Source: Paludibacter propionicigenes (GTDB lineage Bacteria > Bacteroidota > Bacteroidia > Bacteroidales > JAIFNL01). From it: a stretch of 47,200 nt of DNA. Positions 7,297 through 34,402 of this stretch are shown here, piece by piece. Within the stretch, counting starts at the first letter, position 1. Each line of letters starts with the position of its first letter. The notes below the pieces were generated by a model. It made no database searches. It saw only the letters and a program-made list of their open reading frames with translations, and was not told the DNA's origin. Where the stretch lies: NCBI GenBank assembly GCA_020721325.1, contig DYNA01000016.1:1-47200 (forward strand), written 5' to 3'. The position numbers were made by a program, and so were the translations under genes.

Positions 7297-8628
7297 TTAA
7301 AATAAATTCTTATGATAAATCAAATTAACCTGTTTAATTAAATCCTCCCGATTTGTGGAAGTTACATTGATTAAATAATATGGTTTTTCACCCAAAAGCA
7401 TTTTCCAACGCCAATATAATTGACTGATAGTCTTATCATTACCATTATCATACCACCACGCAGTAAAAAGGTTTTCATTTTTCTCGGTCTTTAAAACAGA
7501 GTAATAAAATTTTATATTTTTAATTTGAATAATTTCTTCTTTTGAAAAATTATAACCGCTTCCTTTCCAACAAATTAATGGGGTATGGTCAGCGGCATAA
7601 AAGTTTACCGGCGGCTTAATATAAATTAATAAATTATCATTTGAAAATTGTAAAACATTATCACTAACTAACTGTTTTTTTAAATTTTCTATTCTAATAT
7701 TGTCATTAAAATTTGCCAATGTAGAACCTCTAAAACTATCTCTATAAAAATTTAAAATACCTAAAAATAAAAGTAGAATAAAAGAAAATATTAAATTTTT
7801 AACTAAAACTTTTTTTGTAAAAATTGAAATAGTCCTTTTTATACCTGAAATATTCTTAAAATTTAAAAATGAAATACGAAAAAAAGCATGAACAAAAAAA
7901 TAAAAAGGCAGTAAAAAATAAATAAAAAAAGATAAAAGCCCAAATAATTCGTGTTCAATGCTATCTATCTGTAAATCAAACAAAACAATACCTATAATTC
8001 GCATAAAATTAGAAAAAATATTCAGAAAAACGGCAACAAAAAGCATCAAAAAAATGTGAATATAATTCGCAACTTTATGAATCTTTTTTTCACGATGCGA
8101 AATAATAAGCAAAGCAAAAAGCAAACCAATTGAAAATAAGTTCATTCCCATACACTCAGGAGCAACTTTGTATGTATTTTGACCAAATAAAATTAGATTT
8201 CCACTGAATTGAATGCCTTCAAAAAAAGGTTTCAAAACCCAAACAGCCGATTTTGTAAGCCACAAACGAATATTGAATCCAAACACTTGAAAAAGGTATG
8301 AAGCCAATGGTGAAGCAATAAAAAGATAAAAAATGGGCAAATTATTGAGTTTTCCAAATAAAAATTCGATTAAAAATAAAAGAAAAAAGAAAAAACCAAA
8401 AAAATACAAGGATTGAATCTTTAGAATAGGGTAAAAAATTAAAAAAAATAGAGAAAAATAAAAATAACGACTACTTTTTGTTCCTTCCGGCAAAAAATAC
8501 ATTGCGAATGGTGATAAAAGTATGGCAAAAACAATTTGATTATTCAGATTCAAATAAAAAAGTAAATTTTGGAAACTTAATAGACAAGCAAATATTAAAA
8601 GCGGAATAAAAATAAATTTTTCTTTCAT
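7297..8628 (-). CDS. xrtN: Exosortase (XrtN-type) with C-terminal EpsI-like domain
   Basis: 443 aa polytopic protein; candidate catalytic Cys 'VAPECMGMN', Arg 'FSNFMRIIGIV', His 'DSIEHELFG'; C-terminal 'DHTPLICWKGSGYNF' resembles EpsI; sits next to a protein with a PEP-CTERM-like tail. Confidence 0.82.
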   Translation of the reverse strand: MKEKFIFIPLLIFACLLSFQNLLFYLNLNNQIVFAILLSPFAMYFLPEGTKSSRYFYFSLFFLIFYPILKIQSLYFFGFFFFLLFLIEFLFGKLNNLPIFYLFIASPLASYLFQVFGFNIRLWLTKSAVWVLKPFFEGIQFSGNLILFGQNTYKVAPECMGMNLFSIGLLFALLIISHREKKIHKVANYIHIFLMLFVAVFLNIFSNFMRIIGIVLFDLQIDSIEHELFGLLSFFIYFLLPFYFFVHAFFRISFLNFKNISGIKRTISIFTKKVLVKNLIFSFILLLFLGILNFYRDSFRGSTLANFNDNIRIENLKKQLVSDNVLQFSNDNLLIYIKPPVNFYAADHTPLICWKGSGYNFSKEEIIQIKNIKFYYSVLKTEKNENLFTAWWYDNGNDKTISQLYWRWKMLLGEKPYYLINVTSTNREDLIKQVNLIYHKNLF

Positions 8629-8654
8629 AAAATACTAATTATTAAGATTTTAAA

Positions 8655-8686
8655 GAATTTAACTGCCACAAAAGGCAGTTAAATTC
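8655..8686 (-). other. Strong intergenic hairpin between VIT/PEP-CTERM gene and exosortase gene
   Basis: Perfect 13-bp stem GAATTTAACTGCC (8655-8667) / GGCAGTTAAATTC (8674-8686), 6-nt loop. Confidence 0.8.
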
Positions 8687-8698
8687 ACTCAATTGAAA

Positions 8699-11182
8699 TT
8701 AAAAAAGTTTCTTTAAATAAATAAAAGCAATAAAAACGAGCGACAAAATAATTAAAGCCCATTCATGCGGTTCGGGTACGCCTCCATGCCCCGCAGTTGT
8801 TGCATTTCCGAGCGAATTTTTGTTTTCATCAATATTAAACCGTTCATAATCTTTTTGAGTTTCTAAAACAATTAAACTCGAAACCGGACTAACAATGTAA
8901 GCCTCTTCAGCTAAACTAATTAATTGATTAGTAATAAATTGCTCATTAAAAAAATCTTTTCCGGCTTCTTGCACAATTTTATTGTAAGCGTATAAACGCA
9001 ACAAATGGTCTGGAGCTTTACTCAACTCTTCATTAGCGAACTTTGATATAACCATTTGAGATTCAGATATTAAAACCTGATTGCTATCTAAATCGGGAAC
9101 TAAAATCTCCTGTTTTTTTAACAACATTTCTAAATCAGAAACTGCCCCGTTGTAATAATTAAAAATACCGAATTGTTTTAAAGTTTTCAAATAAGGAGAA
9201 AGCTCACTACCTAAATTATAAAAATTAATTTTCTGGTTATTTTTACTAACGAAATCTGATATTTTTTTAATAAATTCACTTTCACTTAAATCGGAATAAT
9301 TTGGAGAAGATTCTCCGGATTTAGAAATAATTAAAGATTGCTTTAAATTTAATTTGTGTAAAGGTATAAAACTGAAATTCAACGATTTCAATCGATTGAA
9401 CTGTTCTATTGCATTCTCAGAATTAATTTCAATCCATTCATCATAATAAATATATACTTTCTTTTGACTAAAAATTTCGAGAATTTCCAAATATTCATCT
9501 TCCGACCAAGCCGAATTGATGTCCAAATAAATGTTTTCGGGTATAAATTTTAATTTTTTCAGGTGTAAATTTTGAACTTTATATGAATTTTCACCAAAAG
9601 AAAACGAACTTTGAGCTAATTGAGTTTTATCAAATTTAATATTCCAATTCTCATTATAATTTCCGGTATATTCAAAAAATTTAGAATCATTTTTCTTAAA
9701 AAAATCAGGTATTTCAAGATTTGAAACTTGAACTTTCGTATCAAATTTTATTATTAAAGTTTCACGAGCCTTATCAAAATTAGGACCATCAAAAGTAACA
9801 TTCTGTAAAACAAGTCTTTCGCTCTCAAGCAAAAGAGGAATGGTAATTCCAATTTTAAAACGTCTATTTTCAACAGGTGTACATGGAAAAACATTGACAA
9901 CCAGTTGATTACCTTCTTGCCAATGCACTACCGAAGGGTCACGAACTTCTACACTAACAATGGTTTTATATGCGCTATCTGCTTGAGCCTTAGTTGATAA
10001 TCTCGATTTTTCCTCTTTACCATTAATCCAGAGCGAAAGCGAGCTTGCAACAGACCCTTCGGGCAAAGTGAATGTATATAAAGCTTCTTGCTGATTCCAC
10101 TGATATTGATTATTATTTTTTACCGAAATAATTTTTTCTAAATACGCAATTCTATACTCTGGATAAACTCGAATATTGGTTAAAACCTCGGCAGTTTCTA
10201 AGTCTTTTCCAGTCCATAATTTTGCTGTGGCAGCATGTCTGTTTCCGTAAAGTGTTTTTAAAATATTAACTCTTTCATCAACGGAAATATCTAATTTTTC
10301 AGAAAGTAATCCGGCAATTGTAATAAATGGATTATGCAATTTTACTTCGCTAAAAGAGCCAATATTCGGGGCAAACCAATTTCTTTCCGTTCCCATGTCA
10401 TATACTAAATCGCCTTTTAAAATAGATTCAGTAAAGCTATTATTTTCAATATTTTGAGCCAATAAAACCCAAATTGGTAAATCATTGTTTTCATGAGTAA
10501 TAATAGTAGCATTGGTTTGATGAATTTTATTGGCTACGGAAGTATATTGTGCTATAAAAAATACCAGAATAATTATTGGAAAAAAAATTCCGACCGCATA
10601 AGAAATTTTAGAAACTAAAACTTTTTCCATTTTAATAACCCATACCAAAATAGTTATGAGCAATATAATAGGCATTAAAAGGTGAATTGTTAAACCAAAA
10701 AAAAGTAAACCGACAAAAGCAAATGGAATATAAGGCATTAAATACAAAGTAAAATACAATGCCATTATAGTGCCAATTCCTAAAAATAATAAGCTAATAG
10801 TTTGATACAAAGGATTTAGTTTTGGAAAAAAAATAACAACTCCTAATGCAATGTAAGTAGTAAAAAAAGTAAAAATGAGCCAATCCGGCATTTGAGAAAA
10901 TACCGGAATTTCAAGATTTACAGAAAAGCAACTTACAGTAAGTAATGCTAAAAGGAAAAAAAAATGTTTGGCATTTAATTTAAAAATATTCCATCTATTT
11001 ATAACAAAATTATTGATGGCTATAGCTACGAAATACCCCACAGCTATTAAATAAATGGTAAAAAGCAGAATTTCTTCCGACTGTCTCATTTTTGAAAAAA
11101 AATGAAGAATAGCTAATGCTAAAATATTTAATATCAGTCCAATAACTGATAAAAATCGTGAATTTTGATTTTCTGTTTCCAT
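8699..11182 (-). CDS. VIT-domain polytopic membrane protein with PEP-CTERM-like sorting signal (XrtN system VIT protein)
   Basis: 827 aa; multiple N-terminal TM helices; VIT-like region 'AEVLTNIRVYPEYRIAYLEKIISVKN...YTFTLPEGSVASSLSLWINGKEEKSRLSTKAQADSAYKTIV'; C-terminus 'GGVPEPHEWALIILSLVFIAFIYLKKLF' = PEP + TM + basic tail. Confidence 0.85.
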   Translation of the reverse strand: METENQNSRFLSVIGLILNILALAILHFFSKMRQSEEILLFTIYLIAVGYFVAIAINNFVINRWNIFKLNAKHFFFLLALLTVSCFSVNLEIPVFSQMPDWLIFTFFTTYIALGVVIFFPKLNPLYQTISLLFLGIGTIMALYFTLYLMPYIPFAFVGLLFFGLTIHLLMPIILLITILVWVIKMEKVLVSKISYAVGIFFPIIILVFFIAQYTSVANKIHQTNATIITHENNDLPIWVLLAQNIENNSFTESILKGDLVYDMGTERNWFAPNIGSFSEVKLHNPFITIAGLLSEKLDISVDERVNILKTLYGNRHAATAKLWTGKDLETAEVLTNIRVYPEYRIAYLEKIISVKNNNQYQWNQQEALYTFTLPEGSVASSLSLWINGKEEKSRLSTKAQADSAYKTIVSVEVRDPSVVHWQEGNQLVVNVFPCTPVENRRFKIGITIPLLLESERLVLQNVTFDGPNFDKARETLIIKFDTKVQVSNLEIPDFFKKNDSKFFEYTGNYNENWNIKFDKTQLAQSSFSFGENSYKVQNLHLKKLKFIPENIYLDINSAWSEDEYLEILEIFSQKKVYIYYDEWIEINSENAIEQFNRLKSLNFSFIPLHKLNLKQSLIISKSGESSPNYSDLSESEFIKKISDFVSKNNQKINFYNLGSELSPYLKTLKQFGIFNYYNGAVSDLEMLLKKQEILVPDLDSNQVLISESQMVISKFANEELSKAPDHLLRLYAYNKIVQEAGKDFFNEQFITNQLISLAEEAYIVSPVSSLIVLETQKDYERFNIDENKNSLGNATTAGHGGVPEPHEWALIILSLVFIAFIYLKKLF

Positions 11183-11218
11183 AAAAAAATTGGTTTAAAA
11201 ATAATTAATACATAAAAG

Positions 11219-11237
11219 TACTTTGCATTTCAAAGTA
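11219..11237. promoter_or_regulatory. 19-bp palindromic putative operator, copy 2
   Basis: TACTTTG-CATTT-CAAAGTA, 36 bp upstream of the VIT gene start codon; same arms and spacing as 12237-12255. Confidence 0.75.
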
Positions 11238-11252
11238 TAAAAGTAAAAAAAA

Positions 11253-11558
11253 TTACTTACTATTTTCTTGATTTTCAATTAATAACTTAAGATTTTCAAA
11301 ATGTTCCGAAAATACTATTTTGCCTAAATCGCTTACACGATACGATGTATTAGGTTTTTTACCGACAAATTGCTTCCTAATATCAATATATTGAGCTATT
11401 TCGAGAGCTTTTAAATGGCTTGCCAAATTACCATCGCTTAATTCGAGAAGTTCTTTAAGTTCCAGAAAATCAACCCAATCATTAACCATCAAAATAGACA
11501 TAATCCCCAGCCTATATCGGCTTTCAAAAAGCCTGTTCAATTTAGCTATAATATTCAT
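11253..11558 (-). CDS. Winged-helix transcriptional regulator (HTH_34-like)
   Basis: 101 aa; 'RYRLGIMSILMVNDWVDFLELKELLELSDGNLASHLKALEIAQYIDIRKQFVGKKPNTSYRVSDLGK'. Confidence 0.87.
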   Translation of the reverse strand: MNIIAKLNRLFESRYRLGIMSILMVNDWVDFLELKELLELSDGNLASHLKALEIAQYIDIRKQFVGKKPNTSYRVSDLGKIVFSEHFENLKLLIENQENSK

Positions 11559-11575
11559 AATTAGCGAATTATAGA

Positions 11576-12217
11576 TTAGTTTTTGTCGTACTTAAAAAAC
11601 ATAATTGCTCCATACAAAATGTGCAAAACACCAAATCCAACCATCCAAAAAAACAGCCCGTACCCAATAAAAAAAGCGGTAATTAAACCTAAAATAATTT
11701 CGGAAATTCCTAAAAAACGAATATCGGAAAAAGTATAATGGCTTGCATTGATTAAAGCCAATCCGTAAAAAATTAAAGTAACAGATGGCAAAATACCAAC
11801 AATACCGTGCCAAAGCAGAATTAATCCAAAAAAACCTCCGGCAAAAAGAGGGATAAACAAATTAATAAGCATTCGTTTAGTAGTAAAATTCCATACCTGA
11901 ATATTTTTCTTTTTAGCTTTGCGCCAAGTAAAATAAAACGCGGAAATTAAAGCCAAAATTAAAACGGTTGCAGCATCTAAAAAAATGAATAATAAAAATT
12001 TATTTCTAATTTCTGAGTTTGCAAAATAAAGTATTTCGCGGGTTTGCCCGTAGTAAAATGTTTTACCGAAATAAATATAAGCTGCCACCGCACCAAATAT
12101 GGCAAAAATGCCGGCGAAAACGCCTGAAAGTCCGCTCAATGAAAGAAATCGACTTGATTTTTCCATCATTGTTTTTATTTCGTCTATACTATTCAAATAA
12201 TATTGCTTATTTTCCAT
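11576..12217 (-). CDS. Integral membrane protein of the exosortase locus (start trimmed to MENKQYY...)
   Basis: ORF track begins at 12331, but the ATG at 12217 lies just downstream of the palindrome 12237-12255; predicted about 6 TM helices. Confidence 0.75.
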   Translation of the reverse strand: MENKQYYLNSIDEIKTMMEKSSRFLSLSGLSGVFAGIFAIFGAVAAYIYFGKTFYYGQTREILYFANSEIRNKFLLFIFLDAATVLILALISAFYFTWRKAKKKNIQVWNFTTKRMLINLFIPLFAGGFFGLILLWHGIVGILPSVTLIFYGLALINASHYTFSDIRFLGISEIILGLITAFFIGYGLFFWMVGFGVLHILYGAIMFFKYDKN

Positions 12218-12236
12218 AATTTTTAAATAATAAAAG

Positions 12237-12255
12237 TACTTTGAATTGCAAAGTA
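12237..12255. promoter_or_regulatory. 19-bp palindromic putative operator, copy 1
   Basis: TACTTTG-AATTG-CAAAGTA, 19 bp upstream of the ATG at 12217. Confidence 0.75.
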
Positions 12256-12526
12256 AATGATAAAAATCGAATTTAAAAAATATTTTTTGAAAAAAAATAA
12301 AAATATTTTCTAAAATCTTAAATATTAACAATTTAAAAGAGATTTATTTTTCAAAAAAAATTGCCTACTATTAAATTTAAAATTATATTTGGAAAAAAAA
12401 ATTTGAAATCAATGTGGGTATATATTAAATATAATGATTTGATTGATTGAATCTTAGAATATTAGTACAAAACTTTTTTTCTAAAAAAAAAATTTAAAAA
12501 AGATAAAAAAATTAATTATTAATACA

Positions 12527-17882: not shown

Positions 17883-19949
17883 ATGAAAACTTTCAAAAAT
17901 TACTTGTTTTTGGTTCTATTAATACTGGCTTTTTTCACATCTTGCGAAATGAAAGAAATACTGAACGTAGAACTATCAGAAAATGAAATATCTAACGATT
18001 TTGAGTACCAAACTACTCAAAACATTGAATTTAGCTTGTATGTGCTCAACTCAAAAGGCGAAGCACTTAAAAATGTACCGCTAAACGTTTACGACTCTGA
18101 CCCTTTTGATTTGGAAGGAAATTTTGTTGACGGAAAAGCCAATTTACTTTTCAAAGGAATAACAAATTCAAAAGGTGAATTTAATTACAAAACCAAATTA
18201 CCTCAGTATTTAAACAAAGTTTATGTTTGTCCACAATACATAGGTGTAGCCTCAAAAGGAGTAATAACAATCAATTCCGAATACGAATTTTATACCTTAG
18301 GCGGAAAAGCTCCGGCTAACGTAACGAGCAAATCTACCCTAAAAGGAAAAAAAGTAAACGGATATTTAACATTGGGAACTTGGAACGAATTAGGTGTTCC
18401 GAACTATTTGGTATTAGAAAACGATAACATTTCGAGTGAATTATTACAAAAAATTAATGCTTCTCTTCCAGAAAGACAGCCCGTTCCACAGCATCACCCT
18501 GAGTTTATAGACAACAACGCTCAAGTAAATGTGCGTTTGATAGCCGATGCAAAATTATGGGTAACTTTTGTTCACGAAGCTGCGGGTTGGAAAAACGTGT
18601 TGGGTTATTATACTTATCCAACAAACAATCCTCCTCAAAGTGCCGAAGACATTGAAAATTTAATCATTCTTTTCCCAAATTCGTCCTATAAAAATTCAGG
18701 TGGCGGTTTGTATTCAGGAAATAAAGTTCAGTTAAAATATTGGAACGAAGAAACCAACGAATTTTCAGAAACTTTTCCAGAAGGCACAACAGTAGGTTGG
18801 TTTATCAATGCCAACGGCTGGAATGGAAGTGTAACGGAAGGCAATTATCGCCATTATTCAAATTCCGAATTTAACGTAGAACAAAATCAAGAATTGCAAA
18901 AACACAATGTTTTATTGCGAGATGTTGAAAATCAATTACTTATATTAGGTTTTGAAGACATTAGACGCGATGCAGGCAGTTGCGACCAAGATTTTAACGA
19001 TGCTGTATTCTATGTAAAAGGCGAACCTTTTGGAGCAATTGATTTAGAAGATGTTGAAGATGCAGAAGAAATAGTAGATACTGATAATGACGGAGTTTCA
19101 GATAGTTTTGATGATTATCCAGACGATGACACAAGAGCTTTTGATAACTACTACCCTTCTAAAAATGTTTTTGGAACATTTATTTTTGAAGACTTATGGC
19201 CTTCAAAAGGAGATTACGATTTTGAAGACTTGGTAATGGATTACAACATCAATCAAATAACCAACGCTCAAAATCAAATCGTTGAGATTTCCTCGCGCTA
19301 TGTGGTAAAAGCAATTGGAGCTGGTTTTAACAATGGTTTTGGTTTCCAACTTTCAGCTTCGCCCGAAGATATAGAATCGGTTGAAGGCTTTAATATTCAA
19401 GGAAATTACATAACCCTAAACAGCAACAAAACCGAAGCCAATCAAAGCAAAGCCACAATAATTTTGTTTGACAACGCTTATAATATTTTGCCACGTGTAC
19501 CGGGTTATTTTGGAGTAAACGTAGTACCGGAAGCACCTTATTCAGAGCCAGATACCGTATTTTTAAGTGTAAAATTCAAAAATAAAATTCCAATTATTCA
19601 ATCGGCTTTACCTCCTTACAATTCATTCTTAATTGTAAACAAAATAAGAGGCAAAGAAATTCATTTGCCCAACATGCAACCAACTGATTTAGTTGATGTT
19701 TCATTTTTTGGCACAGCCGACGACAATAGTATTCCGGAAGAAGGAAAATATTACACATCGACCAAATATTATCCTTGGGCAATTGACCTGCCAAATTCTT
19801 ACAAACACATGCAATCTTCAAAACGAATAACTTTGGGTTATTTGAATTTTGCAAAATGGGCAGAAAGCAATGGCACTCTTTTCAAAGATTGGTATCTTGA
19901 TATTGAAGGTTACAGAAACTGGGATTATATTTATCCGCATGGAAACTAA
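17883..19949 (+). CDS. LruC-domain-containing surface lipoprotein
   Basis: 688 aa; lipobox 'FFTSC'; 'DTDNDGVSDSFDDYPDDDTRAFDNYYPSKNVFGTFIFEDLWPSKGDYDFEDLVMDYNI'. Confidence 0.82.
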   Translation: MKTFKNYLFLVLLILAFFTSCEMKEILNVELSENEISNDFEYQTTQNIEFSLYVLNSKGEALKNVPLNVYDSDPFDLEGNFVDGKANLLFKGITNSKGEFNYKTKLPQYLNKVYVCPQYIGVASKGVITINSEYEFYTLGGKAPANVTSKSTLKGKKVNGYLTLGTWNELGVPNYLVLENDNISSELLQKINASLPERQPVPQHHPEFIDNNAQVNVRLIADAKLWVTFVHEAAGWKNVLGYYTYPTNNPPQSAEDIENLIILFPNSSYKNSGGGLYSGNKVQLKYWNEETNEFSETFPEGTTVGWFINANGWNGSVTEGNYRHYSNSEFNVEQNQELQKHNVLLRDVENQLLILGFEDIRRDAGSCDQDFNDAVFYVKGEPFGAIDLEDVEDAEEIVDTDNDGVSDSFDDYPDDDTRAFDNYYPSKNVFGTFIFEDLWPSKGDYDFEDLVMDYNINQITNAQNQIVEISSRYVVKAIGAGFNNGFGFQLSASPEDIESVEGFNIQGNYITLNSNKTEANQSKATIILFDNAYNILPRVPGYFGVNVVPEAPYSEPDTVFLSVKFKNKIPIIQSALPPYNSFLIVNKIRGKEIHLPNMQPTDLVDVSFFGTADDNSIPEEGKYYTSTKYYPWAIDLPNSYKHMQSSKRITLGYLNFAKWAESNGTLFKDWYLDIEGYRNWDYIYPHGN

Positions 19950-20669: not shown

Positions 20670-23600
20670 ATGAAAAGCTTTGTTTTATTAACCTCTATTG
20701 TATTGATATTCAGTCTTTCTGTATTCGCGCAACCTGAAATTATTGTACAATCCAAACACAATTCGAGAGTATTACAATCGAAATACAGCTACGATGGGCG
20801 TTGGATAGTAACGGGAGATGAAAACGGAAAAATTATTTTATGGGACGCCAAAACAAAAAAACGTGTTCGCACTTTTTTTAATTTGGGCTATCCGGTGAAA
20901 GCCTTGACTTTTCACCCAACTAAGAATTTTCTAATCTCATCGAGTTACAACAAAATATTAGAATGGGATATTTATACCGGAAAAATAAAAAGGGTATTTA
21001 AAATAGAACATTCCGATTACATAACAAGTCTTGATTTTTCGAGCGATGGAAAATACATAGCCAGCGGGTCGTTAGACGAGAGTGCCATTGTTTGGAAATA
21101 TCAAAACGCCAAAGCCATAAGCAAGTTAAAACAAAAAATGTTTTACAACAATGCCATTTATTCGGTAAAATTTTCGCATTTGGGTAGAAATTTATTTACC
21201 GCCGGCGAAGATATTAATGTAAACATGTGGGATTGGAAAAAAGGAAAGTTGATTAAAAAATTTAAACACCACAAATATAAAATCAATAATATTGCCATAA
21301 ACAGCACCAATAGTTTGATAGCTTCGGCAAGTAACGATAGCAAAGTAAACATTTGGAGCATTAATAGTGGAAAAAAAGTAGCCTGCCTTCAATTGCCCGA
21401 TGCGCCGGCTCAAAGTATAGCTTTTCACCCCAATTTAGACCGAATAATAGCAACTTATTATAAAAATTTTACCGATTCTACCAAACTTTATACTCAAGAA
21501 GTGGTTGAAGGCAGAATAATAATGTGGGATATAAATAAGCTAAAAATTGTTTGGGACAAAAAACTCTCCGGTGGCATTTTAGACATTGCCATTACTCCCG
21601 ATGGAAAGAGTTTTATTACAGCCAATAGCGATACGAATGTAAAAATTTTCAACATTTCAAATGCCAATTTACTTTATGTTTTAGGTATCGAAACACAAAT
21701 AAATAACATTGTTTTTATACCTGAGCGCAATGAATTTTTAACGGCACTGAACAATGGAGTGATTAAAATATGGGATTCAAAACGCTTGAAAGTTAAAGGT
21801 ACTTTGGAAACCAATATCCCAGAGCGAGTAGTTGCCATAGATTATGATTATTCGAGTGGCAATCTGGTGGCAGCCATAGTATCTACAATTTTTATATGGA
21901 ATTATGATTACAATCAAAAAAAGTATTTGTTTCTTAATACTTTTAAAATACCTGAAAGTATAATTTCGGATATTCAATTGAGCGATTTTTCGACCAAAAT
22001 ATTTGTAAAACGCGAGTCTTCGCACAATAAATACGATATTGAAAAACTTCCCGCCTATAAAAATGGCATTTTACCGGAAGATTTAATGGAACAAATCGAT
22101 TCGATTAAAATAGAAGTTTATAGTTTTAATGGAGAGAAAATATATGATTATCAAGATATTTCGCACGAAGAAATTCTTTTTGCCAACAATAATTCGACTC
22201 AACGAATAGCTTACAACAACACCAAAAGTAATATTGTAGAATGTGATTTTAATAAATTTTTAAGTAATAAACAATTGCTGAATTGTCCGGAAGGTGCAAT
22301 GAGTAATACAGTTGTAAAGAATTTAAAAAATTCATCGTCAAAACTCAGTAGCAGCCTTGGTGCGATAAAAACAAAGCAAATCGAACCCAGTTTAAGTAAA
22401 AAAGCACTCAAAACAGAACAAAAACGCTTGAGTAAAATAAATGAAAATTTTACGGTGGGTGCCAATAAATATATTCACATTTCGTACAGTACCGATGGAA
22501 ATTATATTGCAGCTTCGGGCTATTTTGATTACATAGAACTAATTGATTTAAAGGAAAATACCACTAAAAGAATAGGTCATTTTACAGAACCGGTCAATTA
22601 TTTTGAATTTAGCACCGATAATTCAATGCTGGCAAGTATTTCAGAGAATAAAGGACAAGTTTGGAACATAAAAAACGGTGCTTTGGAAACAGAAATAAAA
22701 TCGGAAAATCAACTCAAAGAAATCCATTTTTTTGAAGAAAATCAAAAAATTCTTACCTACGGCGACGAAGATGGAATGAGAGCTTGGAATTCGCAAACCG
22801 GCGAGCCAATTGCTACTATGGTTTCCATTGGCAAAAATGATTTTATAACGCTTTCGCACGAAAACTATTACATCAGCTCAGAAAACGGCAGCCAAGGAGT
22901 CGCTTTTTTTGTTGATGAAACTTCTATTCCGGTAGAATGTTTTAAAATGAAATTTTATAGACCCGAAATTGTATTAGAACGCTTAGGCTTTTCAGACCAA
23001 AATATAATAAACGATTATGCTTCGGATTACAATCAAAATTTGGAAAAATTCGGAATCACACAAGAAGATTTTGATTTATCGCACATTCCAACCATAGAAA
23101 TTCAAAATAAGAAAGAATACAAATGGTTCACTTACAATCGAAATATCAATTTAGATGTTTTTGCAACTGATTTATCACACAATCTGAAAAAAATAAATAT
23201 TTTGGTAAATGGTGTTCCCATTTTAAAACCTTCTCAAACCGATTTAAGCAACCACAATACAGATAGTTATTTTCAAAAATACACTGTTGAATTGAATATG
23301 GGTAAAAATGTAATTTATACTTATATTACAAACGATAAAGGTATTGAATCACTTAAAGATTCGTTAGTGATAACCTTAAAAAACAGAAATAATACCGTAA
23401 CAAAACCTAATTTATACATTATTGCGCTTGGAACTTATAATTTTTCGGAAGAAAATCTAAACTCAGAGTTTAATCTCGAAAATACAAGAAAACTTATTAA
23501 AGTTCTAACAAAAGATGTTTCTCAATACAATGAAATAATTATTGATACCCTTTTTGACGAACAAGCATTAAAATTTCAATTGCTCAAACTCAAAAGAAAA

Positions 23601-24155
23601 TACAGACATGTGTCGGTAGATGACCAATTTATAGTAATTTCGTCGGGTTATAGTGTTCTTAAAAATAATTTTGACGTTTATTTTGCTACTTACAACATGA
23701 ATTTTAGCGACCCCGAAAAAAATGGTATTGCGCATAGTTTAATCAACGGAATGCTTTCCGAAATACCTTCGCGAAATAAAATAATTGTTGTTGATTCTTG
23801 GCAATTTATTCACAACGAAACGGCTAAAAATCTTGATAAACAAAACAATAAAGAGCTTTCGGAAATGACCATCAATACCAACGACCCCGCTAAAAATATG
23901 CGCAAAGATATTTTTAAAGAAATGTATAATACTTCCGGCACAACGGTTTTATTTACCGAAAATATTTTACGTACAGAAGAAAAAGTAAATATTATAAATA
24001 ACACACTTTCAAATGGTTATAAAAAGAAATTAGCCGATATAAACAGCGATGGAATTATTTCGAGCTACGAACTAAATACTTATCTTATTCTTCAAAACGA
24101 ATTAATTGAAGAACCCGAACAAGATAAAAAAGTAGCAATATACAAAGAATTTTAA
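20670..24155 (+). CDS. WD40-repeat protein with C-terminal caspase-like domain (probably inactive)
   Basis: 1161 aa; signal peptide; many WD40 units ('GKYIASGSLDESAIVWKYQ', 'NSLIASASNDSKVNIWSI'); 'KPNLYIIALGTYNF...', 'DDQFIVISSGYSVLKNNFDVYFATYNMNFSDPEKNGI', 'IPSRNKIIVVDSWQ'. Confidence 0.8.
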   Translation: MKSFVLLTSIVLIFSLSVFAQPEIIVQSKHNSRVLQSKYSYDGRWIVTGDENGKIILWDAKTKKRVRTFFNLGYPVKALTFHPTKNFLISSSYNKILEWDIYTGKIKRVFKIEHSDYITSLDFSSDGKYIASGSLDESAIVWKYQNAKAISKLKQKMFYNNAIYSVKFSHLGRNLFTAGEDINVNMWDWKKGKLIKKFKHHKYKINNIAINSTNSLIASASNDSKVNIWSINSGKKVACLQLPDAPAQSIAFHPNLDRIIATYYKNFTDSTKLYTQEVVEGRIIMWDINKLKIVWDKKLSGGILDIAITPDGKSFITANSDTNVKIFNISNANLLYVLGIETQINNIVFIPERNEFLTALNNGVIKIWDSKRLKVKGTLETNIPERVVAIDYDYSSGNLVAAIVSTIFIWNYDYNQKKYLFLNTFKIPESIISDIQLSDFSTKIFVKRESSHNKYDIEKLPAYKNGILPEDLMEQIDSIKIEVYSFNGEKIYDYQDISHEEILFANNNSTQRIAYNNTKSNIVECDFNKFLSNKQLLNCPEGAMSNTVVKNLKNSSSKLSSSLGAIKTKQIEPSLSKKALKTEQKRLSKINENFTVGANKYIHISYSTDGNYIAASGYFDYIELIDLKENTTKRIGHFTEPVNYFEFSTDNSMLASISENKGQVWNIKNGALETEIKSENQLKEIHFFEENQKILTYGDEDGMRAWNSQTGEPIATMVSIGKNDFITLSHENYYISSENGSQGVAFFVDETSIPVECFKMKFYRPEIVLERLGFSDQNIINDYASDYNQNLEKFGITQEDFDLSHIPTIEIQNKKEYKWFTYNRNINLDVFATDLSHNLKKINILVNGVPILKPSQTDLSNHNTDSYFQKYTVELNMGKNVIYTYITNDKGIESLKDSLVITLKNRNNTVTKPNLYIIALGTYNFSEENLNSEFNLENTRKLIKVLTKDVSQYNEIIIDTLFDEQALKFQLLKLKRKYRHVSVDDQFIVISSGYSVLKNNFDVYFATYNMNFSDPEKNGIAHSLINGMLSEIPSRNKIIVVDSWQFIHNETAKNLDKQNNKELSEMTINTNDPAKNMRKDIFKEMYNTSGTTVLFTENILRTEEKVNIINNTLSNGYKKKLADINSDGIISSYELNTYLILQNELIEEPEQDKKVAIYKEF

Positions 24156-26673: not shown

Positions 26674-27192
26674 ATGCGAATACAACGAATTTCACTATCA
26701 AAACAAAAAAAGCAAGACCAAGAAGTTGATTTAAGCTTACTTGAGCCGCTTTTAAAAAAATACAAGGGAAAAAAAGGAAATTTAATTCCAATCTTACAAG
26801 GTACACAAAATCTCTATAATTTTTTACCTCAAGCAGCAATTTTGAAAATTTCGGAAGAAACCGAACATAAACTTTCTGATATTTATGGTGTTGCAACATT
26901 TTATGCACAATTTAGATTAAATCCCGTAGGAAAAAATATAATCAAAGTTTGCCACGGAACGGCTTGCCACGTGCAAGATGCCAAACAAATAACAACCGCC
27001 ATCAAAGAGCATTTAAAAATAGAAGACGGACAAACCACCGAAGACGGAATTTTCACTCTCGAATCTGTGGCTTGTTTGGGCTGCTGTTCCTTAGCCCCCG
27101 TTATGATGATAGCAGACGAAACGTTTGGAAAACTCACAGGAAAATCTGCCGTAAAAATTATACGTGAAATTAAGAAAAAAGAAAATAATTAA
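26674..27192 (+). CDS. NuoE/HydC-like [2Fe-2S] subunit
   Basis: 172 aa; 'YGVATFYAQFRLNPVGKNIIKVCHGTACHV', 'ESVACLGCCSLAPVMMI'. Confidence 0.92.
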   Translation: MRIQRISLSKQKKQDQEVDLSLLEPLLKKYKGKKGNLIPILQGTQNLYNFLPQAAILKISEETEHKLSDIYGVATFYAQFRLNPVGKNIIKVCHGTACHVQDAKQITTAIKEHLKIEDGQTTEDGIFTLESVACLGCCSLAPVMMIADETFGKLTGKSAVKIIREIKKKENN

Positions 27193-27246
27193 GTCTATTT
27201 TTTTATAATAAAAATTGTATTTTAGACTAAAAAACCATTAAAAAAA

Positions 27247-29025
27247 ATGGAAAAATTAAAATTAATTGTAGGAATGGGAAGTTGCGGAATAGCTGCCGGA
27301 GCTGGAAAAGTTTTCGAGAAATTAAAGCAACTCAAAACAGAAGAACTATTCGATATAAATATTGACCAAACAAGCTGTATAGGAATGTGTTACCGCGAAC
27401 CACTTGTTGAAATAATTGACAATAACCATTCGTATTTATATGGCGGAATTGACGAAAACAAAGTAGAAGAACTCATTGAACACCATCAAAAATTTCATCT
27501 TCCCATAAAAGAATGGGTAGTAAAAACGGAAGAATTTACTACACAAGACAACGAATTTACCGATTCGCAAGTAAAAATAGCCTTAAGAAACTGTGGCTAC
27601 ATCAATCCGGAGCGAATTGAAGAATATGAAGCCCAAAAAGGGTATCAATCCATCAAAAAAATAGCTGAAAATAAAATTTCAGCCCAAGAAGTAATCCAGT
27701 CAATACTCGATTCCGGACTTAGAGGACGCGGAGGCGGAGGCTTTTCAACCGGAATGAAATGGCGTTTTGCACGCAACAGTCAAAATACCGAAAAATATAT
27801 TATCTGCAATGCCGATGAAGGCGACCCGGGAGCTTTCATGGATAGGTCGCTACTCGAAGGCGACCCGCATTCGGTTATAGAAGGTATGATAATTGGTGCC
27901 TATGCCATTGGAGCCACAGAAGGTGTAATTTATTGCAGAGCCGAATATCCATTGGCTATCAAGCGATTAAACATTGCATTAGAGCAAGCCAGACAAAAAG
28001 GATATTTAGGAAAAAACATTTTGGGAATCCAAAATTTTAACCTGAATATTTATGTAAAAGAAGGTGCAGGCGCATTTGTTTGCGGTGAAGAAACCGCCCT
28101 AATTGCCTCCGTAGAAGGAGAGCGCGGCATGCCTCGCAAACGTCCGCCATTTCCGGCAGCTTCCGGTCTTTGGAAAAAGCCTACAAACATCAATAACGTA
28201 GAAACTTACGCTAATATTCCTTGGATAATTCTTAACGGAGCCAAAGAATATTCAAAATATGGAACCGAAAAAAGTAAAGGCACAAAAGTTTTTGCCCTTA
28301 CGGGAAAAATAAATCGCGGCGGATTGGTTGAAGTACCAATGGGAATAACGATTAAAGACATCATTTTTAAATTGGGCGGTGGCATTCAAAATGGCAAAAA
28401 ATTTAAAGCAGTCCAATTAGGTGGACCTTCCGGCGGCTGTATTCCGGCATACCTCGACGACACCATAGTCGATTACGATTCGGTCAATGCAACCGGTGCC
28501 ATCATGGGTTCGGGCGGCATGGTAGTAATGGACGAAACAACCTGCATGGTAGATATGGCGCGGTTTTTCTTAGATTTTACACAAAAAGAATCGTGTGGTA
28601 AATGTACTTTTTGCAGAATAGGAACCAAGCGAATGTTGGAAATTCTCACTCGAATAACCGAAGGAGAAGGCAAAGAAGGCGACATAGAAAAACTGGAAGA
28701 ACTTTCTTATCAAATCAAAGAATCTTCACTTTGTGGTCTTGGACAAACAGCTCCTAATCCGGTACTTACAACCATAAAATATTTTAGAAACGAGTACGAA
28801 GCCCACATTCGTGACAAAAAATGTCCGGCAAAAAGCTGCACAAAACTTTTAACTTACGAAGTAATTGCGGAAAATTGCACAGGCTGCACAATTTGTGCCA
28901 TAAATTGCCCAACAAATGCCATCGATGGAGGCAAAAAAACGATTCATTTCATTCGTCAAGACGCATGTATAAAATGTGGAGCTTGCTTTACAAAATGCAA
29001 TTTTAATGCAATAAAAATATCGTAA
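27247..29025 (+). CDS. NuoF/HydB-like flavoprotein with N-terminal Fd-like domain and C-terminal 2x[4Fe-4S]
   Basis: 592 aa; 'GLRGRGGGGFSTGMKW', 'CNADEGDPGAFMDR', 'ESCGKCTFCRIGTKRM', 'CTGCTICAINCPTNAI', 'CIKCGACFTKCNFNAI'. Confidence 0.94.
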   Translation: MEKLKLIVGMGSCGIAAGAGKVFEKLKQLKTEELFDINIDQTSCIGMCYREPLVEIIDNNHSYLYGGIDENKVEELIEHHQKFHLPIKEWVVKTEEFTTQDNEFTDSQVKIALRNCGYINPERIEEYEAQKGYQSIKKIAENKISAQEVIQSILDSGLRGRGGGGFSTGMKWRFARNSQNTEKYIICNADEGDPGAFMDRSLLEGDPHSVIEGMIIGAYAIGATEGVIYCRAEYPLAIKRLNIALEQARQKGYLGKNILGIQNFNLNIYVKEGAGAFVCGEETALIASVEGERGMPRKRPPFPAASGLWKKPTNINNVETYANIPWIILNGAKEYSKYGTEKSKGTKVFALTGKINRGGLVEVPMGITIKDIIFKLGGGIQNGKKFKAVQLGGPSGGCIPAYLDDTIVDYDSVNATGAIMGSGGMVVMDETTCMVDMARFFLDFTQKESCGKCTFCRIGTKRMLEILTRITEGEGKEGDIEKLEELSYQIKESSLCGLGQTAPNPVLTTIKYFRNEYEAHIRDKKCPAKSCTKLLTYEVIAENCTGCTICAINCPTNAIDGGKKTIHFIRQDACIKCGACFTKCNFNAIKIS

Positions 29026-29079: not shown

Positions 29080-30651
29080 ATGAATAACAATCTAAAAATA
29101 GAAAAGCGTTTACCCATAGGAAGAGCTGTTTTCAGAAGTTTTACCGAAGAAAACCTATGCTATGTGGATAAAACGCCTTTTATTAAAGCTCTTAACGATG
29201 AAGTAAGCAAATATTTCTTTTTAGCTCGTCCTCGCCGTTTTGGAAAATCTCTTTTTTTAGATACCCTAAGAGCTGCTTATTCAGCTGAAAAAGAGCTTTT
29301 TAGTGGATTATTTTTAGAAAATAATTGGGATTGGAATGTAAAATACCCGGTTATTAAAATTACCTTTGGTGCAGGAACAATTCAAAATAAAAAAGAATTT
29401 GTCAGTTCTGTGCTTTATTCATTAGATTCTATTGCCGAAAATTTTAATTTAACTATCACTTCCAGAGAATTTACTGCAACTGCATTTAGAGAATTAATTA
29501 AAAAACTTTATATACAAGAAAATCAAGAAGTTGTTATTTTAATTGATGAATACGACAAGCCTCTTTTAGACAATATTACGAAACCAGAATCGGAGGTTTT
29601 ACGCGAAGAATTAGCATCTTTGTATTCGGTTTTAAAAGAAGAAGAACAATATTTGAAATTTGTTTTTATTACGGGAGTTTCAAAATTTAGTAAAACAAGT
29701 ATTTTCAGTAAGTTAAACAATATTCTTGATATTTCGCTCAGTCCAAAATATGCAGACATTTGTGGATATACGCAAGAAGATTTAGTAAATGTTTTCAGTC
29801 ATTTTCTCTTTGATGTGGATTTGAAAAAAATAAAAGTTTGGTACGATGGTTATAATTTTTTAGGACAAAATTTGTATAATCCATATGATATTTTATTGTT
29901 TTTGAACGACAAAAAATACAAATCCTACTGGTTTGAAACCGGAACACCTACTTTTTTAGTTCAACTGATTAAAGAAAAAAAATTTCATGTCCCTTCGCTT
30001 GAAAATATTAAACTTCGTGCTTCGCAACTATCTGAATTTGATATAGATAGAATTGAATTAACGACTTTACTTCTTCAAACCGGATATTTAACCATAGTAA
30101 AAGAGATTGAAGAATTAGACGATACTGTTTACGAACTTTCAATTCCGAACAAAGAAGTACGAAAAGGCATTAATGATTTCTTAATCAGAATGTTATATGC
30201 TTATGAAATCGAAAATATCCAAACAAATTTTATGTTTGACGGTATCAAAAACGCTTTGATTGAAAATAAACCGGAAAACTTAGAAGCAACTTTCAAAAGT
30301 TTTTTTGCCGGAATTCCAAACGATTGGTATCGAAAAAATAAAATAGCTGAATTTGAAGGTTTCTATTCGGCAATGTTTTACGCCTTTTTTGCGGCTTTGG
30401 GCTTAGATATTGTAGCCGAAGATGTTACAAATAAAGGTAAAATTGATTTAACGGTAGTTTTAAATTCTAATTATTTTATTTTTGAATTTAAAATGAAAAA
30501 AAATAGTCAAATTACTGCTATTGAGCAAATTAAAAATAAAAAATATTTTGAAAAATACATTTCCGATTCTGAAAATTTATTTTTAATAGGAATAGAATTT
30601 GATGAATTGGAAAAAAATATTTCGCATTTTGAATGTGAAAAAATTAAATAA
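29080..30651 (+). CDS. AAA-ATPase-like / PD-(D/E)XK nuclease superfamily protein
   Basis: 523 aa; 'LPIGRAVFRSFTEENLCYVDKTPFIKAL', 'FLARPRRFGKSLFLDTL', 'VVILIDEYDKPLLDN', C-terminal 'GKIDLTVVLNSNYFIFEFKM'. Confidence 0.9.
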   Translation: MNNNLKIEKRLPIGRAVFRSFTEENLCYVDKTPFIKALNDEVSKYFFLARPRRFGKSLFLDTLRAAYSAEKELFSGLFLENNWDWNVKYPVIKITFGAGTIQNKKEFVSSVLYSLDSIAENFNLTITSREFTATAFRELIKKLYIQENQEVVILIDEYDKPLLDNITKPESEVLREELASLYSVLKEEEQYLKFVFITGVSKFSKTSIFSKLNNILDISLSPKYADICGYTQEDLVNVFSHFLFDVDLKKIKVWYDGYNFLGQNLYNPYDILLFLNDKKYKSYWFETGTPTFLVQLIKEKKFHVPSLENIKLRASQLSEFDIDRIELTTLLLQTGYLTIVKEIEELDDTVYELSIPNKEVRKGINDFLIRMLYAYEIENIQTNFMFDGIKNALIENKPENLEATFKSFFAGIPNDWYRKNKIAEFEGFYSAMFYAFFAALGLDIVAEDVTNKGKIDLTVVLNSNYFIFEFKMKKNSQITAIEQIKNKKYFEKYISDSENLFLIGIEFDELEKNISHFECEKIK

Positions 30652-30703: not shown

Positions 30704-33700
30704 ATGTCGCAAATAAATGTAACGATAGATGGCAATTTGTACAAAACGGAATCTGAAAAAACGATTTTAGAATTTTGTACAGAAATAGGAATAAAAATTC
30801 CAACACTTTGCCACGACCCACGATTAGAACCTTATTCATCTTGTTATCTGTGTGTTGTAGAAGTAGAAGGTGCGAAAGGTTTGCAAACTTCATGCTCAAC
30901 AAAACTTCAAGAAGGCATGAAAATACAAACGAACAATGAAAAAGTTCGTAAATCGCGCAAAATGGCACTCGACCTTTTGCAAAGCAATCACTTTGCGAGT
31001 TGTCAAGCTCCATGCAAAAGTACTTGTCCGGCAGGCGTAGATGTTCAAGGTTATATTTCATTGATAGATAAAGGTTTATATCACGAAGCAGTTAAATTGA
31101 TAAAAGAAGTAAACCCGCTTCCGGCAATTTGTGGTCGGGTGTGTGTACGCCCATGTGAAGCGGCTTGCAATCGCAATTTTATGGACGAAGGTACGCCGGT
31201 AGGAATTGATTACATGAAACGCTTTGCAGCAGATTTTGATTTGTATTCAAAAAATCACTACAAACCTGAAATACAAGCAAGTACAGGCAAAAAAATTGCA
31301 GTTATCGGAGCTGGTCCGGGTGGACTTTCTGCGGCATATTTTTTACAGCAAAGAGGGCATCAGGTAGATATTTTTGAAGCCAACAAACATGCCGGAGGTT
31401 GGTTGCGATACGGAATTCCTGAATACAGATTACCTAACGACTTATTAGACAAAGAAATAGAAACAGTTACCGAACTGGGTACACAAATTTTTCTAAATCA
31501 AAAATTAGGAGATAATTTAAGTTACGAAAAAATTAAAAAAGAATATCAAGCCACCATTTTAACTATTGGAGCGCAACGTGGAACGCTTTTGGGAGTTGAA
31601 GGCGAAGATGCAGAAGGTGTTTATTCGGGCATCGATTTTTTACGAAATATGGAGCAAACCGGTCAAAAATATGACTTTTCGGGTAAAACAGTAGTGGTGG
31701 TAGGTGGTGGAAATACCGCAATGGATTGTTGCAGAACGTCCATTCGCTGCAAAGCCGAAAAAACATATATTGTGTATCGAAGAACCGAAAAAGAGATGCC
31801 CGCCAATCCGATTGAAATTCACGAATCTAAATTGGAAGGTGTTGAATATCTGTTTCTTACAAATCCTACAAAAGTAAATAAAGACGAAAACGGAAAATTA
31901 AAGTCCATCACTTGCGTTAAAATGACTTTGGGTGAACCCGATTCTTCCGGTCGTCGTCGCCCTGTTCCAATGGAAGGTTCTGATTTTGAAATAGATGCAG
32001 ATTACATTTTAGCAGCCATCGGACAAAAAGTTGATGCCGATTTTGTAAATCACATTAACCAATTTTCCGACAAAGGAGAATTAAAATTGAGCAAATGGGG
32101 AACGATTCAAGCCAATGAAAAAACACTTCAAACCGACATTCCATCGGTGTTTGCAGCCGGAGACGGAGTAACGGGACCGGCTACAATTATTGAAGCCATT
32201 GCACAAGCTGGAATTGCAGCCCGCAGTTGCCATCAATTTATAATGGGCGAAAAAATTGAACCCAAATCCAAAGAATTTTTGAGTAAAAAATCAAATTTTG
32301 TTAAACCGGGTCCAAAAGCTTTTATCGGAAAATACGAAAAACATTTGCGACAAGAAATGCCGGTTTTAAATGAAAAATACCGGATTAATTTTCAAGAAGT
32401 AGAATTGGGTTACACAGAAGAAATGGCTTTGCAAGAAACTGCACGCTGTTTTGAATGTGGTTGCACGGAATATTTCAATTGCGATTTGAAAGACTATTCA
32501 ACCGAGTATGAAGCTGAGCAAGAGAAGTTTAAAGGTGAATTTACCATGCGTCCGCTCGATTTTTCGCATCCATATATAGAAATTGACAATAATAAATGTA
32601 TTTTGTGTTCGCGCTGCGTGAGAATTTGTAAAGAAGTGGTTGGTGCAGGTGCTTTGGGCTTGGTAAACAGAGGGTTCGACACGTATGTAGCTCCAAGTTT
32701 GGGCTTGTCGCTAACCGAAACCGAGTGCGAAAGTTGCGGATTGTGCATTTCTACTTGCCCAACGGGTGCAATTACCGAAAATGTTAAATTCAAAGCCGGA
32801 CCTGTAAAAATGGACAGTTTTGATACGATATGTAACTATTGTTCAATAGGTTGCAAACTGACCATTCATCACCGAGCCGGTTTTGTAATGAAAGTAACCG
32901 GAGCAAACGGTTTGGTAAATAAAGACGGAAACCACTGTAAATTCGGCAAATTTGGCTATTCATACTTCAATGATAAAACACGAATTACAAAACCACTTTT
33001 AAAAATTGGCGATAAATTAGAAGAAATCAGTTTTGAAAAAGCCTTTAAAATTATCGCTGAAAAAATTAATTCGGTAAAACCAAACGAAAACGCATTCTAT
33101 GCAGGTGCGCGTTTAACAAACGAAGAAATTTATTTGGTACAAAAATTAGCGCGTGCCGGAGCTAAAACCAACAATATCAGCAGTTTTCATTATGCTCAAC
33201 GCGAAAACGGATACATAAAAAATTATTTTGAAAATGTGCCGTTTGAAGAAATATCGAAAGCAGAAAAAATATATCTATTTGGTGCTGAGCTAAATAACGA
33301 CAACGGCGTAGTTGGATTTATGGTTCAAAATGCCAGAGCCAAGAAAAATGTAACCATCGATTTGATTACAAGCCACGAAAACAGTGGCATGAAGCATAAA
33401 GCCGACAATATTTTTCATTTAAAATCGTATTACAAATTCATCAAAGCTGTAAACCATTTTTTACTTTCCAATAATCTTCAAAATCAGTTCTTTATAGACG
33501 GAAATTCCCAAAATTTTGAACAATACAAAGAAAATCTTTTGAAAGAAAATTTTGACGATTTGGTAGCCGAATCGGGAGTTTGCTGCAAAGGCACGATTAT
33601 AAATTTTGCAACGGATTTTAACAAAACTCAAAATGCCATCATTATTTTTTCAGAAAAAGAAGTTTCGGCAAATACCAGTTTTGAATTGCAAAATTTAGCC

Positions 33701-34402
33701 CTTTTGACCGGAAAGTTAGGCAAAACCGCCAATGGAATCATAGCCTTGAAAGAAAAAAACAATTCACAAGCCCTTTTCGATATGGGAAGTTTTTCGGAAT
33801 TAGGCATTGGGGCAGTCAATTTACACAACTCGGAAGAACAGAACAAATTAAAAAACAAATGGAATTTAGACCATTTTCCAACCGAAATAGAAGAAGACCA
33901 ATTTTCGCTTTTGCAAAACGGAAAAATTAAAAACACCTTCATTTTTGGCGAAGACCCAATCGGTTGTGCCATTGATAAAGCTGAAATTGAGGAGCTTTTT
34001 GTTGGTGTGGACTTTATTATGGTGCAAGATTATTTCTTAACCGACACCGCAAAATATGCCGATTTAATTTTACCGGCATCGTTTCCGGTTGAAATCGGGG
34101 GAAGTTTTACCAATACCCAAAAAGTAATTCAGGAATTTGAAAAAGCCGAGCATTTTGGAAACCAAAAATTAGAAAAAAACTCGTACCAGCAATTGTTTGA
34201 GTTACTCAAACTATTCAATATTAATGGTTTAAACAATAGAGAAGATGTAATTTCCGAAATCATTTCGTTGCTACCGGAAGCCACATCAGCAGAAAAATTA
34301 AGTTTTACTTACACAAACAAATGCAATACGAATCGAAGATTTAATCACGGTTGCGATAGTTTGGTAAGGCGTTTTAAGCAAGAATTTAATGCTAATTTTT
34401 AA
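30704..34402 (+). CDS. Multidomain redox protein: NuoG-type [2Fe-2S] domain, GltD/NfnB-like NAD(P)H-FAD domain, 2x[4Fe-4S], degenerate FDH/NuoG-like molybdopterin-oxidoreductase fold (StnC-like)
   Basis: 1232 aa; 'CHDPRLEPYSSCYLC', 'IGAGPGGLSAAYFLQQRGHQVDIFEANKHAGGWLRYGIPEYRLP', 'GGGNTAMDCCRTSIRCKAEKTYIVYRRTEKEMPANPIE', 'CILCSRCVRIC...CESCGLCISTCPTGAI', 'CNYCSIGCKLTIHHRAG'. Confidence 0.88.
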   Translation: MSQINVTIDGNLYKTESEKTILEFCTEIGIKIPTLCHDPRLEPYSSCYLCVVEVEGAKGLQTSCSTKLQEGMKIQTNNEKVRKSRKMALDLLQSNHFASCQAPCKSTCPAGVDVQGYISLIDKGLYHEAVKLIKEVNPLPAICGRVCVRPCEAACNRNFMDEGTPVGIDYMKRFAADFDLYSKNHYKPEIQASTGKKIAVIGAGPGGLSAAYFLQQRGHQVDIFEANKHAGGWLRYGIPEYRLPNDLLDKEIETVTELGTQIFLNQKLGDNLSYEKIKKEYQATILTIGAQRGTLLGVEGEDAEGVYSGIDFLRNMEQTGQKYDFSGKTVVVVGGGNTAMDCCRTSIRCKAEKTYIVYRRTEKEMPANPIEIHESKLEGVEYLFLTNPTKVNKDENGKLKSITCVKMTLGEPDSSGRRRPVPMEGSDFEIDADYILAAIGQKVDADFVNHINQFSDKGELKLSKWGTIQANEKTLQTDIPSVFAAGDGVTGPATIIEAIAQAGIAARSCHQFIMGEKIEPKSKEFLSKKSNFVKPGPKAFIGKYEKHLRQEMPVLNEKYRINFQEVELGYTEEMALQETARCFECGCTEYFNCDLKDYSTEYEAEQEKFKGEFTMRPLDFSHPYIEIDNNKCILCSRCVRICKEVVGAGALGLVNRGFDTYVAPSLGLSLTETECESCGLCISTCPTGAITENVKFKAGPVKMDSFDTICNYCSIGCKLTIHHRAGFVMKVTGANGLVNKDGNHCKFGKFGYSYFNDKTRITKPLLKIGDKLEEISFEKAFKIIAEKINSVKPNENAFYAGARLTNEEIYLVQKLARAGAKTNNISSFHYAQRENGYIKNYFENVPFEEISKAEKIYLFGAELNNDNGVVGFMVQNARAKKNVTIDLITSHENSGMKHKADNIFHLKSYYKFIKAVNHFLLSNNLQNQFFIDGNSQNFEQYKENLLKENFDDLVAESGVCCKGTIINFATDFNKTQNAIIIFSEKEVSANTSFELQNLALLTGKLGKTANGIIALKEKNNSQALFDMGSFSELGIGAVNLHNSEEQNKLKNKWNLDHFPTEIEEDQFSLLQNGKIKNTFIFGEDPIGCAIDKAEIEELFVGVDFIMVQDYFLTDTAKYADLILPASFPVEIGGSFTNTQKVIQEFEKAEHFGNQKLEKNSYQQLFELLKLFNINGLNNREDVISEIISLLPEATSAEKLSFTYTNKCNTNRRFNHGCDSLVRRFKQEFNANF

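Follow-up and report, generated by a model that had tools for sequence, protein, structure and literature searches.

What does an exosortase do for a target that is encoded beside it, and do the genes upstream of that pair belong to the same system? The question is raised by four genes in a 47,200-nt stretch of DNA from Paludibacter propionicigenes (hereafter the window, meaning the whole stretch that was analysed), which encode a small membrane protein, a winged-helix regulator, a VIT-domain protein and an exosortase. A preliminary description, made from the sequence, had portrayed them as a self-contained, one-enzyme, one-substrate sorting system of a known but functionally uncharacterised family.

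Results

The four co-directional genes had been correctly recognised, and three of them have NCBIfam or Pfam matches. Read 5′ to 3′ on the minus strand, the order is element 1, mem, HTH_34, element 2, vit and xrtN, the two elements being copies of a DNA pattern considered below. The last gene, xrtN (7297-8628, minus strand), encodes a 443-aa exosortase N (TIGR04476, 300.9 bits, curated cut-off 200 bits; PF09721, 44.4 bits), and vit (8699-11182, minus strand) encodes an 827-aa XrtN-system VIT protein (TIGR04477, 877.1 bits, curated cut-off 250 bits; PF08487 VIT, 35.5 bits). Both proteins thus score above cut-off in the HMM search that had been suggested with the exosortase N and XrtN-VIT models, and by sequence the pair is an ordinary member of a catalogued family; no function for that family was found in the literature searched, in agreement with the initial reading. 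The regulator gene, hth (11253-11558, minus strand), encodes a 101-aa HTH_34 winged-helix protein above the gathering score of 27 (PF13601, 93.7 bits), and mem (11576-12217, minus strand) encodes a 213-aa membrane protein with five TM helices by hydropathy. No Pfam or NCBIfam family matched mem, which aligns with 25 homologues at 38-66% identity. Its likely start is the ATG at 12217, rather than position 12255, where the locus had been said to begin, or the mechanically assigned TTG at 12331.

XrtN is laid out as a TM exosortase core followed by a C-terminal alpha/beta domain at about residues 315-440 (AF2 pLDDT 91). The candidate catalytic Cys, Arg and His noted earlier correspond to C159, R210 and H226, which are invariant across 55 XrtN sequences. 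The C-terminal domain carries a conserved motif, H348-x-P-x-x-C353-W-x-G-x-G-Y, and H348, P350, C353, W354, G358, W391 and W392 are invariant in the homologue alignment. Its resemblance to EpsI/DUF3485 (PF11984) is weak, with no match in the window's XrtN and weak matches in six of the 55 homologues (best E 0.007). Weak matches to this region in the sample family f19 sit on separate ORFs, which suggests that the domain can exist as a stand-alone protein. Since a PDB fold search with XrtN gave no match below E 0.2, the domain is left without a structure-based name.

The pairing of one enzyme with one substrate was borne out at the genome level. The window's own genome (4.36 Mb, 91% complete) has a single exosortase match and no match to PF07589 (PEP-CTERM) at E ≤ 1, and a profile built from 30 rows of XrtN tails identifies the VIT protein alone at 72.9 bits, the next score being 11.4; the genome scan for further PEP-CTERM tails, whose presence had been named as the refutation of a dedicated pair, thus returned none. 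One strong tail (66-78 bits; next at most 18.7) was also found in each of 32 other XrtN genomes, 28 of which have a single exosortase match. Both family cut-offs are passed by the same five of 396 sampled genomes of the phylum, and in 77 of 80 loci vit is followed by a co-directional xrtN. Among the three loci with no xrtN after vit, two are on contigs that stop less than 1 kb from vit, and one (L095) has none in 3.7 kb. The VIT protein is, as judged by these profile searches, the sole XrtN target in its own genome.

No EPS cluster was seen among the ORFs of the window. Other genes in the window include one for a predicted AAA-ATPase/PD-(D/E)XK nuclease (29080-30651, plus strand; PF09820 and PF08011), which is flanked by genes for hydrogenase/formate-dehydrogenase-like subunits (26674-29025 and 30704-34402) and may be a mobile insertion, one for a 1161-aa protein with many WD40 repeats and a C-terminal half that looks caspase-like by eye (20670-24155, plus strand), and one for a protein of 688 aa that looks secreted and contains the domains DUF4114 and DUF4842 (17883-19949, plus strand).

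By hydropathy and in the AF2 model (pLDDT 91), the VIT protein begins with seven TM helices, continues as a large body and ends in a C-terminal TM tail. The VIT domain occupies about residues 328-460, an ITIH-like beta and alpha/beta body continues to about residue 780, and the tail spans residues 800-827. The best Foldseek match is inter-alpha-inhibitor heavy chain 1 (6fpz/6fpy; E 6e-15, 594 columns), one of the inter-alpha-trypsin inhibitor heavy chains with VIT and VWA domains, from which the VIT protein differs by its added TM regions, a TM-score of 0.3-0.4 and an identity of 12%. The tail carries the C-terminal processing signal GGVPEPHEW-TM-KK (8702-8785, minus strand), previously described as PEP-CTERM-like, in which G800, P803-E804-P805 and E807-W808 are invariant among 61 homologues. 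Loop charges (positive-inside) fit a predicted orientation with the N-terminus in, the body out and the end of the tail in. No TM helix or one is present in each of seven ordinary VIT proteins of the Bacteroidota, whose sequences were taken from partial loci. The XrtN target is thus modelled as a polytopic membrane protein with a periplasmic body rather than as a secreted protein, and cleavage of the tail could not release it because seven other TM helices would keep it anchored. It is mainly because tail removal would leave the target in the membrane that a plain secretion or sorting role is doubted; of the sorting system first proposed, the XrtN/VIT pairing stands and the implied release calls for revision.

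The two upstream genes have a distribution of their own. A co-directional pair of mem and HTH_34, always in that order, precedes vit-xrtN in 34 of 80 loci (31 of the 69 with at least 3 kb upstream), over half of the relatives having no such genes beside vit; at this position, neither mem nor HTH_34 occurs without the other in any of the 80 loci. The four-gene arrangement spans Flavobacteriales, Chitinophagales, Cytophagales, Sphingobacteriales and Marinilabiliales, and has a patchy distribution on the VIT tree, where 35 members have it, 35 lack it and no fewer than 14 changes are needed. In the phylum sample mem is present in 133 of 396 genomes, mostly as a single copy, against five of 396 for XrtN/VIT. 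Of 20 loci inspected, 18 have an HTH_34 gene immediately after mem; the remaining two have either two genes between mem and HTH_34 (L142) or another ORF in its place (L154). The genes that come after mem-HTH_34 often encode CreD, DUF4153 or other membrane proteins. Given these counts and the repeated changes in linkage, mem-HTH_34 was rejected as a fixed part of XrtN systems, and its distribution is that of an independent and far more widespread module. The locus is therefore self-contained only in part, a separate module being tied to the exosortase pair through a common promoter element. A further membrane protein, about 170 aa long, unnamed and unmatched in Pfam, recurs between hth and vit in several orders (for example L032, 9319-9822, and L108, 9295-9801).

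The upstream regions of mem and vit have the pattern ACTTTG-N5-CAAAGTACTTT in common, which the preliminary description had missed at both sites. Element 1 (ACTTTGCAATTCAAAGTACTTT; 12233-12254, minus strand) lies 15 bp upstream of the mem ATG, and element 2 (ACTTTGAAATGCAAAGTACTTT; 11215-11236, minus strand) lies 16 bp after the hth stop and 32 bp upstream of the vit ATG. Both are exact matches to the pattern and have a promoter- or operator-like placement, and no other site in the 4.36-Mb genome comes within one mismatch of it; at two mismatches the pattern has seven sites there and the reversed pattern three. Allowing at most one mismatch between -300 and +200 of the start codon, the element was found at mem in 32 of 35 loci and at vit in 18 of 35 four-gene loci and 30 of 45 stand-alone vit loci, with none at hth (0/35) or xrtN (0/78) and none for the reversed pattern throughout. 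Of the 34 four-gene relatives, 32 carry a site in the hth-vit gap itself, usually at a distance of 19-22 bp from the hth stop, and there it precedes whichever gene comes next.

These positions bear on whether the locus is an ordinary dedicated sorting system, in which XrtN would cut the VIT protein for delivery to the matrix or cell surface, the proposal made for PEP-CTERM proteins, with the regulator and mem as unrelated neighbours. Such a reading fits the TIGR04476/TIGR04477 membership, the standard motif-TM-basic tail and the independence of mem-HTH_34, yet it is unlikely, since the product would be held in the inner membrane by its seven further helices and since an element that the genome carries only before mem and vit speaks against chance neighbours.

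The element was then compared with gene content in a scan of 75 genomes, including 23 mem-positive and 20 mem-negative genomes and 32 named XrtN genomes. A site is present in all 23 mem-positive genomes, which come from the phylum sample, and in all 32 named XrtN genomes, and it is lacking in 19 of the 20 mem-negative ones. The twentieth, G107, is without mem and carries an HTH_34 gene (143 bits) preceded by an element site. Among vit genes unlinked to the module, those of G174 and G246 have the element and that of G325 has none at the threshold used. The conserved element thus stands in the promoter of the regulator's own operon and co-occurs strongly with mem/HTH_34, and because it tracks the HTH_34 gene, including in G107, the HTH_34 protein is probably its reader. 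The link to exosortase pairs appears common and not obligatory, because 15 of 45 stand-alone vit genes, G109 (which has XrtN and no mem, and no element site), and the XrtK genomes G163 (at its MSEP gene) and G137 are without the element.

Bacteroidota promoters have -33 and -7 elements, the -7 box being TAnnTTTG. Over 192 element sites, a TTG-like peak at -24 to -22 stands out in flanking sequence on which the pattern placed no selection; it lies about 20 nt before TACTTTG, and because this resembles the -33/-7 spacing, the dyad probably overlaps a promoter. The closeness of TACTTTG to the -7 box and the -33-like peak could also mean that the element is merely a strong promoter, or a site for another factor, and not an HTH_34 operator. 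We consider this improbable: a plain promoter would be spread over every genome, whereas the element has 1-8 copies per genome in the scanned genomes with sites, is missing from 19 of the 20 scanned genomes that lack mem and goes with the hth gene even when mem is absent, and its N5-spaced CAAAGT arm and extra ACTTT lie outside that promoter consensus. Control of translation or mRNA stability by an RNA hairpin in the 5′ leader is very improbable, for although the two copies can fold (-4.5 and -5.2 kcal/mol; z -4.6 and -3.7) and often lie within 60 nt of the start codon, the letters are conserved (the arms being pattern-selected), a third ACTTT arm lies outside the hairpin, the element tracks a DNA-binding protein, and a known structured RNA was rejected as there is no Rfam match.

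Other genes directly behind the element encode CreD, DUF4153, DUF1361, DUF2809, Coq4-like, Peptidase_C92 and beta-lactamase-fold hydrolase proteins, as well as small unnamed membrane proteins, so that the genes it precedes are mostly for inner-membrane or envelope proteins. We infer from this pattern an envelope regulon under HTH_34 control, exosortase pairs included. In the window's own genome the regulon appears to consist of just two units, mem-HTH_34 and vit-xrtN; CreD is absent there, so the case for a role in envelope maintenance rests on other species. Element-linked genes for Coq4-like, DUF1361, DUF2809, Peptidase_C92 and beta-lactamase-fold proteins recur in many genomes (including at L244 and L245), and this candidate envelope regulon is worth study of its own.

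Discussion

The XrtN/VIT pair does not differ from other XrtN/TIGR04477 systems, with which it has in common the adjacent genes, the PEPHEW tail and one target per enzyme; the upstream mem-HTH_34 operon and the common element are not part of those models. XrtK (TIGR04287) with MSEP-CTERM (TIGR04286) is likewise a single exosortase with one adjacent dedicated target, which also has an N-terminal polytopic region, a VIT-like region and a C-terminal TM tail. It differs in its MSEP tail, in a target with 10-12 TM helices against seven, and in a short exosortase without the weakly EpsI-like domain of XrtN, and the window's VIT protein scores 54.1 bits against TIGR04286, below the 150-bit cut-off. 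The element is linked to XrtK/MSEP in two of four genomes, before xrtK in G290 and before the MSEP-CTERM gene in G166; general membership of XrtK/MSEP in the regulon was therefore rejected in favour of an occasional one. At the G290 locus (L142, 3372-8955), XrtK and MSEP-CTERM occur with mem, HTH_34, SanA-like and YiiX-like (C92) genes, which makes this another exosortase pair with such regulatory surroundings. With PEP-CTERM/EpsH (XrtA) systems the locus has in common the exosortase core, the Cys/Arg/His residues and a PEP-containing tripartite tail, but it has one polytopic target rather than many, and no PF07589 match. The marine proteobacterial sortase target (TIGR03788) is a VIT-domain protein dedicated to a single transpeptidase; our VIT protein matches it weakly (E 0.005, far below cut-off), and the class of enzyme differs.

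Taken as a whole, the locus is with moderate confidence best explained as a two-unit HTH_34 regulon combined with remodelling of the VIT protein C-terminus by XrtN. The two transcription units, mem-HTH_34 and vit-xrtN, would each have their own ACTTTG-N5-CAAAGTACTTT copy over the promoter, and a dimer of the HTH_34 protein would most likely bind the dyad. ACTTTG apparently falls on the -7 box, which makes repression the simplest mode; it would be lifted by an envelope signal, in the sensing of which mem may take part. On induction the VIT protein would enter the inner membrane through its seven TM helices; the VIT/ITIH-like body would then lie on the periplasmic side, and the tail would recross the membrane. 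XrtN, using Cys159, Arg210 and His226, would then cut at or near PEPHEW and form an acyl-enzyme, after which the new C-terminus would either be left free or be transferred to an acceptor in the membrane or envelope. A Cys/Arg/His mechanism has been proposed for archaeosortase ArtA, whose cleavage step precedes attachment of a lipid to the C-terminus (PMC7157517); cleavage of the VIT protein near PEPHEW most likely follows an ArtA-like mechanism. The product would be an inner-membrane protein with a periplasmic body and a remodelled C-terminal attachment, not a secreted one. Its role may lie in envelope maintenance, to judge from the regulon neighbours CreD, DUF4153, Peptidase_C92 and beta-lactamase-fold hydrolase. 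The only Bacteroidota exosortase phenotype found in the literature searched concerns a different family, xrtF of Flavobacterium johnsoniae, deletion of which abolishes surface colonisation and biofilm formation (PMC10936215).

Within the literature searched, outside which lie subscription papers, no paper was found that joins an exosortase with XrtN, the VIT domain or MSEP-CTERM, that describes the mem-HTH_34 operon or the common element with XrtN/VIT, or that gives the element for bacteria. The link between regulator, element and regulon and the argument from polytopic targets are thus provisionally regarded as new.

We tentatively suggest, at somewhat less than even confidence, that a phylum-wide envelope regulon of the Bacteroidota, run by a single-copy HTH_34 regulator and mem through ACTTTG-N5-CAAAGTACTTT, recruits XrtN pairs, and at times XrtK/MSEP pairs, alongside CreD and DUF4153, and that exosortases there would remodel inner-membrane proteins for envelope homeostasis rather than serve secretion or matrix sorting. 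Polytopic dedicated targets question the view that every exosortase releases its substrate or sorts it outside the cell. The mem-HTH_34-CreD/DUF4153 regulon may be of interest to Bacteroidota envelope biology generally, and the element is carried by cultured Pedobacter, Mucilaginibacter, Dyadobacter and Chitinophaga. For XrtN and XrtK, for which the literature searched yielded no function, it offers a candidate for the regulator, a list of targets and, in envelope stress, a class of phenotype, and the common element provides a first testable clue to the purpose of the XrtN/VIT pair.
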